This document shows, in pieces, positions 22,357 to 28,984 of a stretch of DNA of 64,000 bases. The stretch lies in NCBI GenBank assembly GCA_002841885.1, contig PHBE01000007.1:62001-126000 (forward strand), given 5' to 3'. Numbering within the stretch: the first letter of the stretch is position 1; each line of letters begins with the position of its first letter. This stretch comes from Deltaproteobacteria bacterium HGW-Deltaproteobacteria-18. GTDB taxonomy: Bacteria > Desulfobacterota > Desulfovibrionia > Desulfovibrionales > Desulfomicrobiaceae. Position numbers and translations under genes: made by a program. The notes under the pieces were generated by a model. It did no database searches. It had not been told where the DNA came from and worked only from the letters and a program-made list of their open reading frames with translations.

Positions 22357-22398
22357 GCGAAATCAGTCGGGCTTGGCCGGCGGGTTTCGCTTTTTTTT
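22357..22398 (+). terminator. Intrinsic terminator after the receiver gene
   Basis: GCGAAATC (22357-22364) pairs with GGTTTCGC (22383-22390) with one G-U, and eight T follow. The T-run reaches the 3' end of the convergent zinc-ribbon gene. Confidence 0.7.
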
Positions 22399-23611
22399 AG
22401 AGCGTCGTGGACCAGTGGAGGGCATTTTTCTGGATCGCCATGTTCATTTCGGGCTGCACGAATTCCCGCGGGCCTTCAATAAACGGCAGATATTCGATGC
22501 TCGCCTCGCCTGCGCGCAACGAACCACCCTGGATTCTGGGAAACAGGTTCTTGCGGGCCGGGGCCAGGCGGCCGAGGACCACGGGTAGAGCCTGGAACGC
22601 TTCCTCCCTGGGCAGGGTCACGGGATGCAGGGGCGTGCGGGGCAGGGTTTCAAGCGTCGGAGCCTCTGGCTGGTAAAGGCTGACCTGGGCGCTCAGGTTC
22701 AGGAAAAGTCCGGGCCTGATCTTGAAGGCCGGTACGCGGAAGGAAAAGGCCGTAGACTCCATCCAGGGCAAGAGGGCGCGCGGCAGGTTGGTCAGCCGGA
22801 TCAGGTCGGCCCAGGTCTGGAGCCTGAACCCTCTGGCCTGGACGCGCAGGTTCCAGAAGGGCAGGTAGATGTCTGGCTTCTCCTGCGTATGCAGAAAATG
22901 CGGGGCGATCTGCTGGCCGCCCTCGGGACCGGGTTCCCACGCCGTGTCGCAGTGCGGGCAGGTCTGAACCAGGCTCTGACGGTCTCCGATCAGATCCCAT
23001 CCGCATTTGGGGCACAGGGTCGAGGTGAACCTGAGCCGACTGCCAGCCTTTTGCGCTTCAGCCGGGTCGATGCAGGCCGGTCCGAGATGCTCGCCGGTGA
23101 TCCCGTCCACAAGTTCATGGCTTTGAAAGACGGGCTGGTAGACAAGCGAGAGACTGTCGCCCACGCAGGCCGTGAGCTTTGGTCCTCTCTGGACAGGCAG
23201 GCCTGGGAGGGCGCGCAGGAGACGGGATTTGAAGTCGATGCTTGGTATGGTCGGGGGCAGAAAGAGGCCGTCCGTCGTCGGTTCCACAAAGGACAGCTCC
23301 ATGGCCTGGGTGCGCAGCCCAAGCGAGGCCGGGAGAGCCGGATTGCTCAGGGCCAGGAGGTTCGAATCGAGAATCTTGTGCTGGGTGGTTTGCGGTCCAA
23401 GTACAAAGGCGTTGCCCCTGAACCTCCAGTACGGGATATGAATGAGCGTGCCCGGATGACTGATGCGCGGTTTCAGGCGGTATTCAAAGGGGCCGCTGCT
23501 GTGGATGAACAGGCGGACCTGACAAAACGGACAGGAAAAAATCCTGTCCGTTTCCTTTAGCGCCACCGGCGCTCCGCATTGCGGGCATTGATGTGAGAGA
23601 TGACCGGTCAT
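22397..23611 (-). CDS. Zinc-ribbon protein of unknown function
   Basis: 404 residues with two zinc-ribbon motifs. One is N-terminal (CPQCGAP...CPFC, about residues 9-32), the other near the middle (CPKCGWD...CPHC, about 218-243). Between and after them are beta-rich, Trp/Pro-rich segments (HIPYWRFRGNAF, YLPFWNLRVQARGF) that look like two copies of one module, each following a ribbon. No membrane segment is evident. It follows the SPFH gene by 2 bp, so the two should work together. I do not recognise a named family. Confidence 0.7.
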   Translation of the reverse strand: MTGHLSHQCPQCGAPVALKETDRIFSCPFCQVRLFIHSSGPFEYRLKPRISHPGTLIHIPYWRFRGNAFVLGPQTTQHKILDSNLLALSNPALPASLGLRTQAMELSFVEPTTDGLFLPPTIPSIDFKSRLLRALPGLPVQRGPKLTACVGDSLSLVYQPVFQSHELVDGITGEHLGPACIDPAEAQKAGSRLRFTSTLCPKCGWDLIGDRQSLVQTCPHCDTAWEPGPEGGQQIAPHFLHTQEKPDIYLPFWNLRVQARGFRLQTWADLIRLTNLPRALLPWMESTAFSFRVPAFKIRPGLFLNLSAQVSLYQPEAPTLETLPRTPLHPVTLPREEAFQALPVVLGRLAPARKNLFPRIQGGSLRAGEASIEYLPFIEGPREFVQPEMNMAIQKNALHWSTTL

Positions 23612-23613
23612 GG

Positions 23614-24750
23614 TCAGCCCATGCGCTCCCCGCAATGATTGCAGAACGTGGAGGAAGCCAGGTTTTCCTGACCGCAGGACGGACATTTGGCAGTCTCGCG
23701 GACGCTGCCTGCCTGCCTGCCGCAGCGCGGACAGAAGCGCGTGCCCGGGGCCAGGTTTTTCCCGCAGCCCTTGCACTGTTCAAAGACGACCAGCTGGTGT
23801 CCGCAGGAGGGGCAGAACTTGTCGTCCTGGCGGATGGGCTGGGTGCATTCCGGGCACTTCAGGCCGTTGGCCTGCGCTGCAGGCGCCGTGGCGGATTGTC
23901 CTGCCATCTGCATGGCCTGGGCCATGAGCGAGGGCATCATGAAGCCTACCCCGAGCCCCATGGACTCGCCCGCGCTACCGGGATTCGCGGCCGCCTTTTC
24001 CATGGCGGACGCGGCCTTGAGCTGCATGAGCTTGTTCATGTCGTCGAACATGCCGAGCTTGGTCTTGTCGTCCATGGCCTTCTGGACTTCGGGCGGCGGG
24101 GTGATGGCGTTGATGAAGAGCTGGTTCAGCGACAGCCCGAAATGGCGGAAATCTTCCTGCAGCCGTTCCCGCAAGCCCGCGGACCATGCTTCGTAGCGGC
24201 TGGGCAGGTTCAGGATGGTGTCCATGTTTTCGCCCAGGTAATCGTTGAACCTGGAGACGATGACCTTGCCCAGGTAGTCGCTTAAGTCGGCCACGGTAAA
24301 GGAGCCCATGGTGCCGACCAGTGAGTTGATGAAGAGCAGGGGCTGCACGATCTGGATGTTGAACATGCCGTAGGCGCGCAGGCGGATGAGTCCGAGTTCC
24401 GAATCCTTGAAAGCCACCGGCTCCCGGGTGCCCCATTTGAGGTTGGGGAAGACCTTGGTGTTCACCATGTAGGCTTCCGCCCGGAGCGGGCTCTCCAGCC
24501 CCCAGGGGATGCCCATGATCTTGTTCAGGATTGGGATGTTGGCGGTCTTCAGGGTGTGCCTGCCCGGTCCGAAGACATGCACGGCCTTGCCGTTGTAGAA
24601 GAAGATGCCGGCTTGGGATTCGCGCACGACCATCTGCGCGCCGTACTTGATTTCGCCGGAGCCATCCTGTGGGAATCGCCGCGCGAATTCCTGACCGCTG
24701 TCGTCAAACCACTCGATGAGCTCAAGAAAGAAAAGATTGTCGACGCCCAT
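23614..24750 (-). CDS. SPFH-domain protein with C-terminal zinc ribbons (YdjI-like)
   Basis: 378 residues. The first ~220 residues are an SPFH (band 7) domain (QAGIFFYNGKAVHVFGPGRHTLKTANIPIL, RLRAYGMFNIQIV, GLSLNQLFINAITPP). A Met/Ala-rich linker (about 250-295) follows, then three Cys4 ribbons (CPECTQ...CPSCG; CKGCG...CPRCG; CPSCG...CNHCG). The layout resembles B. subtilis YdjI, a partner in the PspA envelope-stress operon; that link is family knowledge and inference. The start at 24750 has GGAGGAAG upstream. It pairs with the following zinc-ribbon gene. Confidence 0.8.
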   Translation of the reverse strand: MGVDNLFFLELIEWFDDSGQEFARRFPQDGSGEIKYGAQMVVRESQAGIFFYNGKAVHVFGPGRHTLKTANIPILNKIMGIPWGLESPLRAEAYMVNTKVFPNLKWGTREPVAFKDSELGLIRLRAYGMFNIQIVQPLLFINSLVGTMGSFTVADLSDYLGKVIVSRFNDYLGENMDTILNLPSRYEAWSAGLRERLQEDFRHFGLSLNQLFINAITPPPEVQKAMDDKTKLGMFDDMNKLMQLKAASAMEKAAANPGSAGESMGLGVGFMMPSLMAQAMQMAGQSATAPAAQANGLKCPECTQPIRQDDKFCPSCGHQLVVFEQCKGCGKNLAPGTRFCPRCGRQAGSVRETAKCPSCGQENLASSTFCNHCGERMG

Positions 24751-26403: not shown

Positions 26404-27243
26404 TTAAAGGCCCAGGGCGGCGGGGCAGAACTCGCCCTTGTAGACGAGCAGTGCTTTGCCGCGCAGGAAAATGTCCGAGCCTTGAACTCCTATCCCGAGC
26501 ACTTCCGAGCCCGAGGTGGTTACGCTTGCCCTGGCATCGCAAAGGCCCAGCGCGTGGGCAACGGCCACGGAAGCGGCCGCGCCGGTTCCGCAGGCATGGG
26601 TCTCGTTTTCCACGCCTCGCTCGTAGGTGCGCAGCAGGAGCTCCCCGCGGTTCAGGATCTGGATGAAGTTGGCGTTGGTCCCGGCCGGGGCGAAGTGTCC
26701 GTGATAGCGGACCTTGGCTCCAAGGCTTTTTACATCAAGGCCCTTGACGTCGTCGGTGATAATGACCGTATGCGGGACGCCGGTGTTGGCGAAATGGGCC
26801 GTAAAGGTCTCGCCGCCCAGTTCGAGGGTAAAATTCAGGGCCATGTCACGCGCCGGGGTCAGCTGCACTTCCACCTCGCCGGCTTCAGGGAAGACCTGGG
26901 CGTGCACCGCGCCCGCGTCAGTGAGCATGAGGTGTTCGGCTGGGGCCATGCCTAGCTTGTGGGCCAGCAGGGTGGCACAGCGCGAGCCGTTGCCGCACAT
27001 CTCGGCGCGGGAGCCATCGGCATTGAAAAAGTGCCAACGCGTAGCGGCCTGTCCGGAGTCGTCGAGTTCCAGAAATATGATGCCGTCCGCGCCGATGCTG
27101 AAGGCGTGCGGGCACAGCGCCTTGGCCCAGCGGGGCATGAGCCCGGGGGATATGGTCTTTGCGCGGTTGTCGATGACGATGAAATCGTTGCCGCTGCCTT
27201 GCATCTTGTAAAAAAATTGGGTCGGGCCGGCGAAAATGGACAT
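26404..27243 (-). CDS. dapF: Diaminopimelate epimerase
   Basis: 279 residues. It converts LL-DAP to meso-DAP for peptidoglycan and lysine. The two catalytic cysteines are C83 (EMCGNGSRC) and C218 (HACGTGAAA). Other landmarks are [14 protein letters not shown] and GVPH. The ATG at 27243 follows AAGGA. The minus-strand promoter region holds a perfect TATAAT (27272-27267) about 25 bp upstream of the start. Confidence 0.96.
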
Positions 27244-27315: not shown

Positions 27316-28167
27316 CTAGGGATTGAAGATGGCGTGGATTTCAGGGTCCGCGACGACTTCGCCGCCAAGAGGCGTGGCCGCCGTGAAAACGGTAGTCTGC
27401 GGCTCCCAGATCATCTTGACGCCGGGTTCGGGCAGAGTTGGAATGGTCACGCCGAGGATGTTTCTGCCTTTGGTGAAGGCCCGCACCCAGAGCAGCGAGT
27501 TCTCGCGCATGAAGAGACCCGCATAGCCCGGGCCCGGCCCGGACCCAAGAATGATGTCGAAAGCCGCGCCGTGACGGTCGATGAAATCGTTCTCCCGGTT
27601 CGCGCCCCAGGTGCTGATCCCGATGATCAAGTTGTGCTTGCCGTCTTTGCGCAGAGATTTCGCCAAAGCGGCGGCCCTGTCCTCGATCTCGAGGTCGTGC
27701 AGCCCGCTGTCGGGGAAAAGAACGAAAGCCAGGCTGCCGCCCTGCACCTGCCTGACGACCAGTTGCGGTTCGTCAAACGGGCCGGCCCACTGACCGGTTT
27801 CCACGCCTGCATGCTCGAAGGCGACGGCGTCATTGGGGGCACGCAGCGCGATATCGTAGCCAAGCAGGTCGTAGGCTCTCTTGAGCTTGGAGATGACGGA
27901 CGGGTGCCTGTCCCTCTCCAGACCGATGGGGGAAAACTCGTATCCGCCGCTTATGATGACGGTGTCCGCATTCTCGCGCGCGGTTTTGAAATAGGTGGCC
28001 CGCCGGGCCAGCCCCCCGAAGGTTTTATTCCCTCAACTGGGACATGGGGCGAATTCTCCCAGACTGTTCGCGGAGAAGAGGATTGTCGTCTCGGCCCCGG
28101 CCAGGGCGGGCGCAAAAAGGGCCAGGGCCAGGGTGAACCAGAGTGCGGCATGGATGCTTGTCTTCAA
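27316..28167 (-). CDS. Probable selenoprotein: exported metallophosphoesterase-like protein with Cys-x-x-Sec
   Basis: One reading frame runs from a TTG at 28167 (AGAGG upstream) to 27316, broken only by TGA at 28035-28033. Read as selenocysteine it gives 283 residues: a signal peptide (to about residue 25), then LFSANSLGEFAPCPSU with C42 and U45, then GGLARRAT. The rest resembles the UshA/5'-nucleotidase metallophosphoesterase fold (YDLLGYDIALRAPND, LIIGISTWGANREND, IILGSGPGPGYAGLF), but the usual metal-binding Asp, Asn and His motifs are degenerate. Coding continues equally well on both sides of the TGA with no frame change. Six base pairs (27996-28001 with 28005-28010) form a hairpin with loop GGC, 28 nt past the codon, as bacterial SECIS elements do. 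Alternative: a nonsense mutation or sequencing error. Confidence 0.7.
27996..28010 (-). promoter_or_regulatory. SECIS-like hairpin downstream of in-frame TGA
   Basis: On the coding strand UGGCCC-GGC-GGGCCA forms a perfect 6-bp stem with a three-base, G-starting loop. The loop begins 28 nt after the UGA at 28035-28033, within the distance generally accepted for bacterial SECIS elements. A GC-rich gene can form such hairpins by chance. Confidence 0.5.
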
Positions 28168-28177
28168 GGAGGCCTCT

Positions 28178-28984
28178 TTAGATCAGGGGTTTCAGGATCG
28201 GGCTGCGGGAGATGAGATCTTTCAATCTGATGCGGCGGTCCATGATTTTTTGGGCGATTTCGCGAATGTCCTGCGCCGCCTGGCAGGTTGGGGCAAATTT
28301 CAGGAGCGGAACCTGATGGCGGACGGATTCCGTGACCATGGGGTCGCGGTGGACCACGCCGAGCAGGCTGATGGGCAGGCTCAGGAAATGCTCGCAGGCC
28401 TGGGCCAGGCGGTTGAAGGCGTTTTTGGCCTCTTTTTGCGATTCGGCCATGTTCACGATGATCTGGAAATTCCTGATCTGACGCTGGGTGCAGAGCACCT
28501 TGATCAGGGCATAGCTGTCGGTCAGGGAAGTGGGCTCGGGGGTGATGACCACGATCCGTTCCTGGGGCATGGCCGCAAACGAGAGCACTGTCGGGCTGAT
28601 GCCGGCGCCCAGATCGAGGATCAGGAAATCGTAGCGCCGGAACAGGGCGTCCAGTTTGTCCAGCAGCAGGCCTTGCACGTCCTCGTCCATTTCCACCAGT
28701 TCGGCCACGCCGGAGGCCGATGGGAGCAGGACGAAGCCGTCTCCCGCCAGGGGAATGACAACGTTTTCGGCCGAGGTGTCACCAAGCAGGTCCTGCAGGT
28801 TTTTTTCCGGGGAAATGCCAAGGAGCACGTCCAGGTTGGCCAGCCCCAGATCGGCGTCCAGCAGGACGATGCTGTTGCCGAGTTCATGCAGGGCAAAACA
28901 GAGATTCAGGGCGAGATTGGTCTTGCCCACGCCGCCTTTGCCGCTGGCGACGGAGATGCTGAGTGTCGTGTTGGCTTCGGTCAT
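28178..28984 (-). CDS. MinD/ParA-family ATPase, FlhG-like
   Basis: 268 residues. The deviant Walker A SGKGGVGKTNLALN, DADLGLANLDVLLG and FLILDLGAG define a MinD/FlhG-type ATPase. VNMAESQKEAKNAFNRLAQACEHFL resembles FlhG, which sets flagellar number, and no C-terminal amphipathic MinD helix is obvious. No flhF or flagellar gene is in this window, so the role could be in another polar process. It lies 13 bp after the diguanylate cyclase gene and 10 bp before the selenoprotein candidate. Confidence 0.85.
   Translation of the reverse strand: MTEANTTLSISVASGKGGVGKTNLALNLCFALHELGNSIVLLDADLGLANLDVLLGISPEKNLQDLLGDTSAENVVIPLAGDGFVLLPSASGVAELVEMDEDVQGLLLDKLDALFRRYDFLILDLGAGISPTVLSFAAMPQERIVVITPEPTSLTDSYALIKVLCTQRQIRNFQIIVNMAESQKEAKNAFNRLAQACEHFLSLPISLLGVVHRDPMVTESVRHQVPLLKFAPTCQAAQDIREIAQKIMDRRIRLKDLISRSPILKPLI

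Follow-up and report, generated by a model that had tools for sequence, protein, structure and literature searches.

An in-frame TGA in a gene for a probable exported protein

Does the in-frame TGA in a gene on the minus strand of the window (i.e., the whole stretch of 64,000 nt analysed here) interrupt that gene, or is it read as selenocysteine (Sec), and if so, what could such a protein do? An earlier interpretation, made from the letters alone (below, the sequence-only reading), had proposed an unannotated periplasmic selenoprotein of metallophosphoesterase-like fold with a Cys-x-x-Sec motif. The features discussed below are collected in Table 1.

Translation bears out that the frame 28167-27316 consists of 283 codons and a TAG, with one internal stop, the TGA at 28035-28033. 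As had been suggested, this TGA occupies the place where it completes a CPSC-type pair: with the TGT codon of Cys42 (28044-28042), the motif reads C42-P-S-UGA45, and C42 and U45 are the sole Cys/Sec residues of the protein. From the N-terminus onwards, a signal-peptide-like stretch is followed by strand 1 with C42, the TGA, GNKTFGGLARRATYF and 223 more residues; the N-termini of relatives resemble the putative signal peptide. The TTG start is supported by the ATG or GTG that relatives have at the same position and by the Shine-Dalgarno-like AGAGG upstream. The truncation to 162 residues by ordinary gene calling, also foreseen, agrees with the table-11 ORF that is left downstream of the TGA (27804-27316; 162 aa).

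Table 1. Coordinates of the selenoprotein gene, its elements and its neighbours in the window
Feature	Position	Strand	Basis or remark
CDS, UshA-like selenoprotein family 2	27316..28167	minus	283 aa; NF049981 254.3 bits
Start codon TTG	28165-28167	minus	
Stop codon TAG	27316-27318	minus	
In-frame TGA, codon 45, predicted Sec45	28033..28035	minus	TGA in 19/20 family genomes with the gene
TGT codon of Cys42, the supposed partner of Sec45	28042..28044	minus	Cys in 23/25 rows of alignment A1
Probable signal peptide, residues 1-25	28093..28167	minus	Visual judgement: Lys, hydrophobic stretch, A-G-A/E
Shine-Dalgarno-like AGAGG, 5 nt upstream of TTG	28173..28177	minus	Sequence
SECIS-like hairpin TGGCCC-GGC-GGGCCA	27996..28010	minus	6 bp, 3-nt loop starting with G; in L-A-R-R-A-T codons
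MinD/ParA-type ATPase gene, ends 10 nt upstream of the selenoprotein gene	28178..28984	minus	Conserved neighbour
dapF, downstream neighbour	26404..27243	minus	TIGR00652 235.4 bits, cut-off 114.65

Of the 25 close loci scanned, 22 have a MinD-like P-loop gene upstream, and none is seen in L010 (a locus cut by a contig end), L021 and L022. Downstream, the neighbour is dapF in 12 of 15 loci scanned within the genus. In L020 and L030-L034, a HU-like gene was seen by eye between the MinD-like and the selenoprotein genes. Some distant relatives occur near selA, formate dehydrogenase-related genes or a HD-domain YfbR-like gene. The MinD-like ATPase, HU and dapF say nothing on redox chemistry, and these neighbours fix no function. 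Elsewhere in the window, the neighbouring proteins encoded at 23614-24750 and 22397-23776 (minus strand) display zinc-ribbon-like Cys patterns and have no NCBIfam match at E <= 0.001.

Conservation of the TGA and of its flanks

In a search across the window's family, 20 of 22 genomes proved to carry the gene, at protein identities of 31-100%; there was no match in G018 (96% complete) or G019 (83% complete). The same single TGA is present in 19 of these 20 genomes with both flanks conserved, which argues that neither the TGA nor its flanks are there by chance. The sole Cys form in the family, L017 of genome G021, has the motif CPVC. Position 45 is Sec or Cys in all 25 rows of alignment A1 and position 42 is Cys in 23, so that homologues with Sec (UGA) or Cys at this position, as anticipated in the sequence-only reading, do exist, and GGLARRAT is conserved in them. 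A contig profile search with A1, whose pattern had a Cys codon at the Sec position, gave no relative; the same search with A2, which covers what follows the TGA, gave five loci. Contig ends truncate two loci, L010 and L019.

In pairwise comparisons with L003 and L004, codons 26-44 have a dN of 0.023 and a dS of 0.51 and 0.67, respectively, and the part after the TGA a dN of 0.084 and 0.092 and a dS of 0.46 and 0.41. As judged from these substitution patterns, purifying selection acts on both flanks of the TGA.

The selenocysteine machinery

The genes that a Sec reading calls for were all located in the window's genome: selA (623.8 bits), selB (366.5 bits), selD (327.1 bits; with an in-frame TGA of its own) and the tRNA-Sec (86.3 bits; anticodon tca). 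Among the 21 other family genomes, 19 have selA; the two without are G021 and G006, the latter 63% complete and carrying selB. In G021, the genome with the Cys form, no selA scored above the cut-off and the best selB match reached 92.4 bits against a cut-off of 242.25. As G021 is 85% complete, absence of selA and selB is likely there, not certain; its congeners G019 and G020 have both genes. The selB search covered G000, G006, G016, G017 and G019-G021, and in G017 selB is split across two contigs, each part scoring below the cut-off. The change of UGA to Cys where selA and selB were not found constitutes a natural control for the selenoprotein reading.

A putative SECIS element

In bacteria, a SECIS element is a hairpin just past the UGA with a G opening the apical loop. 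The perfect 6-bp hairpin with a GGC loop that had been pointed out 23 nt past the TGA indeed folds as described, at 28010-27996, and is SECIS-like in its position and its loop. Across 23 UGA genes, it is conserved at the codon level: A54 is GCC and R55 is CGG in 23 of 23, A57 is GCC in 22 of 22, and R56 is CGG in 21 and AGG in two. These four have the lowest codon entropies of the 29 conserved degenerate positions in the close set (residues with at least four codons, kept in at least 20 of the 23 close-set UGA genes), where Arg, Ala and Gly positions outside the hairpin use three to five codons each. In the Cys form L017, the corresponding codons read GCT CGC CGG GCC, and the hairpin codon pattern is broken.

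Of 200 synonymous shuffles, 4% were as stable as the window's hairpin. Folding energies lower than in synonymous shuffles (p <= 0.05) were obtained for 3 of 23 close homologues (mean z -1.08), 11 of 33 distant CxxU genes (mean z -1.01), two of nine Sec-only genes (mean z -0.65) and none of 14 Cys forms (mean z 0.16); the CxU group gave no such signal (3 of 48; mean z -0.17). Since the folding signal is weak, and nil in the CxU group, we take codon conservation and not folding energy as the SECIS evidence. Rfam had no match at the hairpin, and the window-wide Rfam scan yielded one tRNA only.

By every computational test tried, this is a selenoprotein gene, and Sec insertion is predicted: homologues, sel genes and the codon conservation of the hairpin all support the proposal that the TGA hides a Sec-containing protein. 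An apparently broken gene would thus be an intact one.

A member of a catalogued UshA-like family

The window protein scores 254.3 bits (245.5 in the genome search) with the NCBIfam model NF049981, for which the cut-off is 140, over residues 28-281. By sequence, it is an ordinary member of the catalogued NF049981 “UshA-like (seleno)protein family 2”. A 2026 review (PMC13188914) includes the NF049981-type family in its Table 1, with the motif CxxU and as GenBank-annotated. The window gene is therefore not an unknown kind of selenoprotein, given the existing model and this entry. The Cys form L017 passes the same cut-off (227.3 bits). With NF041198 (UshA-like family 1, CxU), the window protein reaches 32.6 bits (cut-off, 275) and is not a member. 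There was no match to it in the SoxB model TIGR04486 at E <= 1 or in Pfam up to E = 1; the one match in PHROGs (E 0.47) was set aside. Our literature searches found no paper on the function of the UshA-like selenoprotein families.

The family-2 model matched at least 153 of the 395 genomes of the phylum (E <= 0.001), of which at least six score over the cut-off, the window's own included. Neither NCBIfam cut-off was passed by any of the nine distant CxxU and seven Sec-only proteins tested outside the window's clade, nor by L049. A middle band of Desulfobacterota UshA-like Sec proteins, among the distant relatives L035-L058 and L086-L185, is thus nameless in NCBIfam.

Diverged copies were also encountered. 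G005 has a second UshA-like gene (L023:1444-2319) with PCPG-UGA after a signal-peptide-like N-terminus, and G001 a second family-2 copy (L022:1357-2247; PCPD-UGA; 261.7 bits) in a locus without a MinD-like gene. The window's own genome encodes a 420-aa UshA-like paralogue (L029, C7:292108-292698) with GGLARR and DAGD and a loop without Cys or Sec, which L025 and L026 resemble.

Cys, Sec and haem motifs in the relatives

From the matches listed, we sampled 29 loci beyond the window's own and 100 taken nearly in E-value order, covering the model start. The parser received 150 loci, of which 127 were counted and 15 unparsed and eight misparsed ones were left out. Among the matches listed, 54 of the 127 parsed loci are CxxU, none with CxxCH and none with a Cys in the last 15 residues; 48 are CxU, with CxxCH in 46 and a C-terminal Cys in 20; 11 are Sec-only, with a C-terminal Cys in eight; and 14 are without Sec. 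Four CxxCH motifs occur in 45 of the 46 CxU proteins that bear any, and three in L103, which is cut by a contig end. Pfam Cytochrome_C554 matches 13 of the 18 CxU and Cys proteins of alignment A6. Most of the loci left out were re-read: seven are CxxU (L038, L039, L040, L055, L110, L119 and L140), four are CxU with CxxC pairs downstream (L096, L170, L179 and the frameshifted L121), three are CxU without haem motifs (L124, L133 and L156), and the remaining ones re-read have Cys in place of Sec.

Some of the relatives have features of their own. In L110, a second in-frame TGA follows some 50 codons past the first. The UshA-like Sec genes of L203 and L207 lie beside a gene run with selA, with a B12-binding radical SAM protein between (selA was placed by coordinates in L207 and by BLAST cluster in L203), and in G279 and G358, selA is likewise within a few kb of an UshA-like Sec gene. 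Those of L197, L198 and L203 are near molybdopterin oxidoreductase and fdhE-like genes, joined in L197 and L198 by a fdhD-like gene; the neighbours are annotated in L197 and were assigned by BLAST cluster in L198 and L203.

In a wider genome set, which omits duplicates, haem-bearing rows and the misparsed L253 and L255, the 94 haem-less Sec proteins divide into 16 Sec-only proteins and 78 with a loop Cys. A C-terminal Cys is found in 10 of the former and in none of the latter; the contrast weakened with sampling, from 8/11 Sec-only versus 0/54 CxxU to 10/16 versus 0/78. A naive Fisher test of it, which ignores relatedness, gives p 8.9e-10, and a tree-corrected sign test on independent pairs is not significant (median p 1), the three pairs available on starred branches being too few to reach significance. 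Along the tree, six changes are required for the Sec-only state and four for the tail Cys. In group g229, one of four Sec-only species has the C-terminal Cys, and the two Sec-only proteins of the window's family end in SSCGQ (L020) and TSCGH (L021), both passing the family-2 cut-off. A C-terminal Cys does not by itself mark a lost loop partner, since 20 of the 48 CxU proteins have both.

This pattern lends weak to moderate support to a Sec-Cys couple in which either of two sites can supply the Cys, and we read the haem motifs as a better sign of electron transfer than the C-terminal Cys. A point against such a couple is that the GOS study (PMC2398784) names UshA-like as one of the few major families that lack a conserved Cys-based redox motif.

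A metallophosphoesterase-like fold without its metal site

The AlphaFold model (five sequences) has a pLDDT of 80.9 and a pTM of 0.82. Its top structural match is SoxB (2wdc: Z 21.5, rmsd 2.9, 231 residues aligned, 15% identity); UshA (1ush) gives Z 19.9 and rmsd 3.4 over 240 residues, the alignment stopping at 1ush residue 351, and there are many 5'-nucleotidases among the matches. A 2z1a profile has weak similarity (E 0.02) near GG-x-ARR after strand 1. According to DSSP of the model, Sec45 lies between strand 27-32 and helix 51-66, where local confidence is low (block means of 65 and 61 for residues 31-50).

Enzymes of the UshA/SoxB type hold two metal ligands (D-x-H) in the loop that joins strand 1 to helix 1. 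At the positions of what we take to be the ligands of the dinuclear site in UshA and 5'-nucleotidase (D, H, D, N, H, H and H), profile alignments and A5 place N34, L36, G74/75, P111, T186, G210 and G212 in the window protein. Among the 25 rows of A1, position 34 is Asn in 23 and Glu in two, position 36 is His in two, and positions 210 and 212 are Gly throughout. In the distant CxxU group (A5), the GD position retains Asp in 16 of 22 and the SHLG position His in 7 of 22, and the metal site appears half degraded there. The substituted ligand positions and the SoxB and UshA matches support the earlier suggestion of a metallophosphoesterase-like fold with degraded metal ligands. With the metal site gone, metal-dependent phosphoesterase activity is unlikely.

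A probable redox couple and its alternatives

The window gene probably encodes a periplasmic NF049981 selenoprotein in which Cys42 and Sec45 form a redox couple on a dead UshA/SoxB-type metallophosphoesterase scaffold. UGA at codon 45 would be read as a sense codon, with SelB on the hairpin delivering Sec-tRNA, and Cys42-Pro-Ser-Sec45 would occupy the loop leading from strand 1 to helix 1. Cys and Sec could then form a reversible selenenylsulfide, and the protein would be a thiol/selenol oxidoreductase of the periplasm, with c-type cytochromes or some other carrier as its partner in electron exchange; from the SoxB-like fold, the substrate may be guessed to be a sulfur species (persulfide, thiosulfonate or disulfide). 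In favour, we count that C42 and U45 are the only Cys/Sec residues and that CxxCH occurs in 46 of 48 CxU relatives; against it count the six of 16 Sec-only members without a C-terminal Cys and the lack of a haem domain in the window's branch. Of the mechanisms considered, a redox mechanism is the most likely.

The TGA as a true stop (a pseudogene, a sequencing error or two genes) is barely conceivable: standard gene calling does halt there and leaves an ORF, but the same TGA recurs in 19 of 20 genomes between flanks under apparent purifying selection, grounds on which pseudogene and sequencing error were rejected; moreover, a curated selenoprotein model matches and the codon conservation of the hairpin is lost in the Cys form. 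Use of the Cys/Sec pair as a binding site for soft metals or metalloids, in a chaperone or in detoxification, seems unlikely to us. Soft-metal binding is a property of Cys-x-x-Cys/Sec motifs, no further Cys exists in the protein, and a Sec without loop Cys, as in 16 of the 94 haem-less members, is unexpected for a redox pair alone. The haem motifs of the CxU relatives nevertheless fit electron transfer better, and the 16 annotated neighbour proteins, a small sample, include no metal transporter or sensor.

It would also be rather improbable that Sec45 replaces the dinuclear metal centre as the catalytic nucleophile of a hydrolase or transferase, e.g., in sulfur or phosphate transfer, although Sec lies in the very loop that bears the D-x-H ligands in UshA-type enzymes, Sec or Cys is kept at position 45 in every one of the 25 A1 rows, compared with 23 for Cys42, and the best structural match, SoxB, is a hydrolase of sulfur oxidation. 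Most members, however, conserve Cys42, the haem motifs found in relatives speak for electron flow, and SoxB, 3ive, CD73 and UshA are within 2 Z of each other, so that the SoxB match selects no chemistry.

With the redox couple as the preferred reading, a wider generalisation may be offered tentatively, as a possibility that we hold with less than even confidence: the UshA-like selenoproteins may be redox enzymes of the periplasm that arose when a dead metallophosphoesterase fold became a Sec-based electron-transfer device. The CxU branch would carry its own tetrahaem cytochrome, the window's branch would use the Cys-x-x-Sec pair with an outside carrier, and several lineages would have replaced the loop Cys by one at the extreme C-terminus (C-G-Q/H, G-C-Q and similar). 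Such tails recall that of the thioredoxin reductase selenoproteins. Sec would here be placed in a fold otherwise known for metal-dependent hydrolysis, and a testable hypothesis is at hand for two families, i.e., a Cys/Sec redox couple that exchanges electrons with c-type haems.

Comparison with known systems

With the members of NF049981, the window protein shares a score above the cut-off and the CxxU motif, and no difference was found. SoxB (2wdc) has the fold in common with it, but in the window protein the metal ligands are replaced, the C-terminal domain is missing and the SoxB model does not match. Likewise, the fold is that of UshA and 5'-nucleotidase (1ush, 2z1a), whereas the metal ligands are replaced and the C-terminal substrate-binding domain was not found in the 283 aa, by Pfam (E up to 1) or by structure alignment. 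NF041198, the COG0737 UshA-like family of the GOS study, has the N-terminal region and the Sec position in common with the window protein; its members are CxU, nearly all with CxxCH (46/48), whereas the window protein is CxxU and does without CxxCH.
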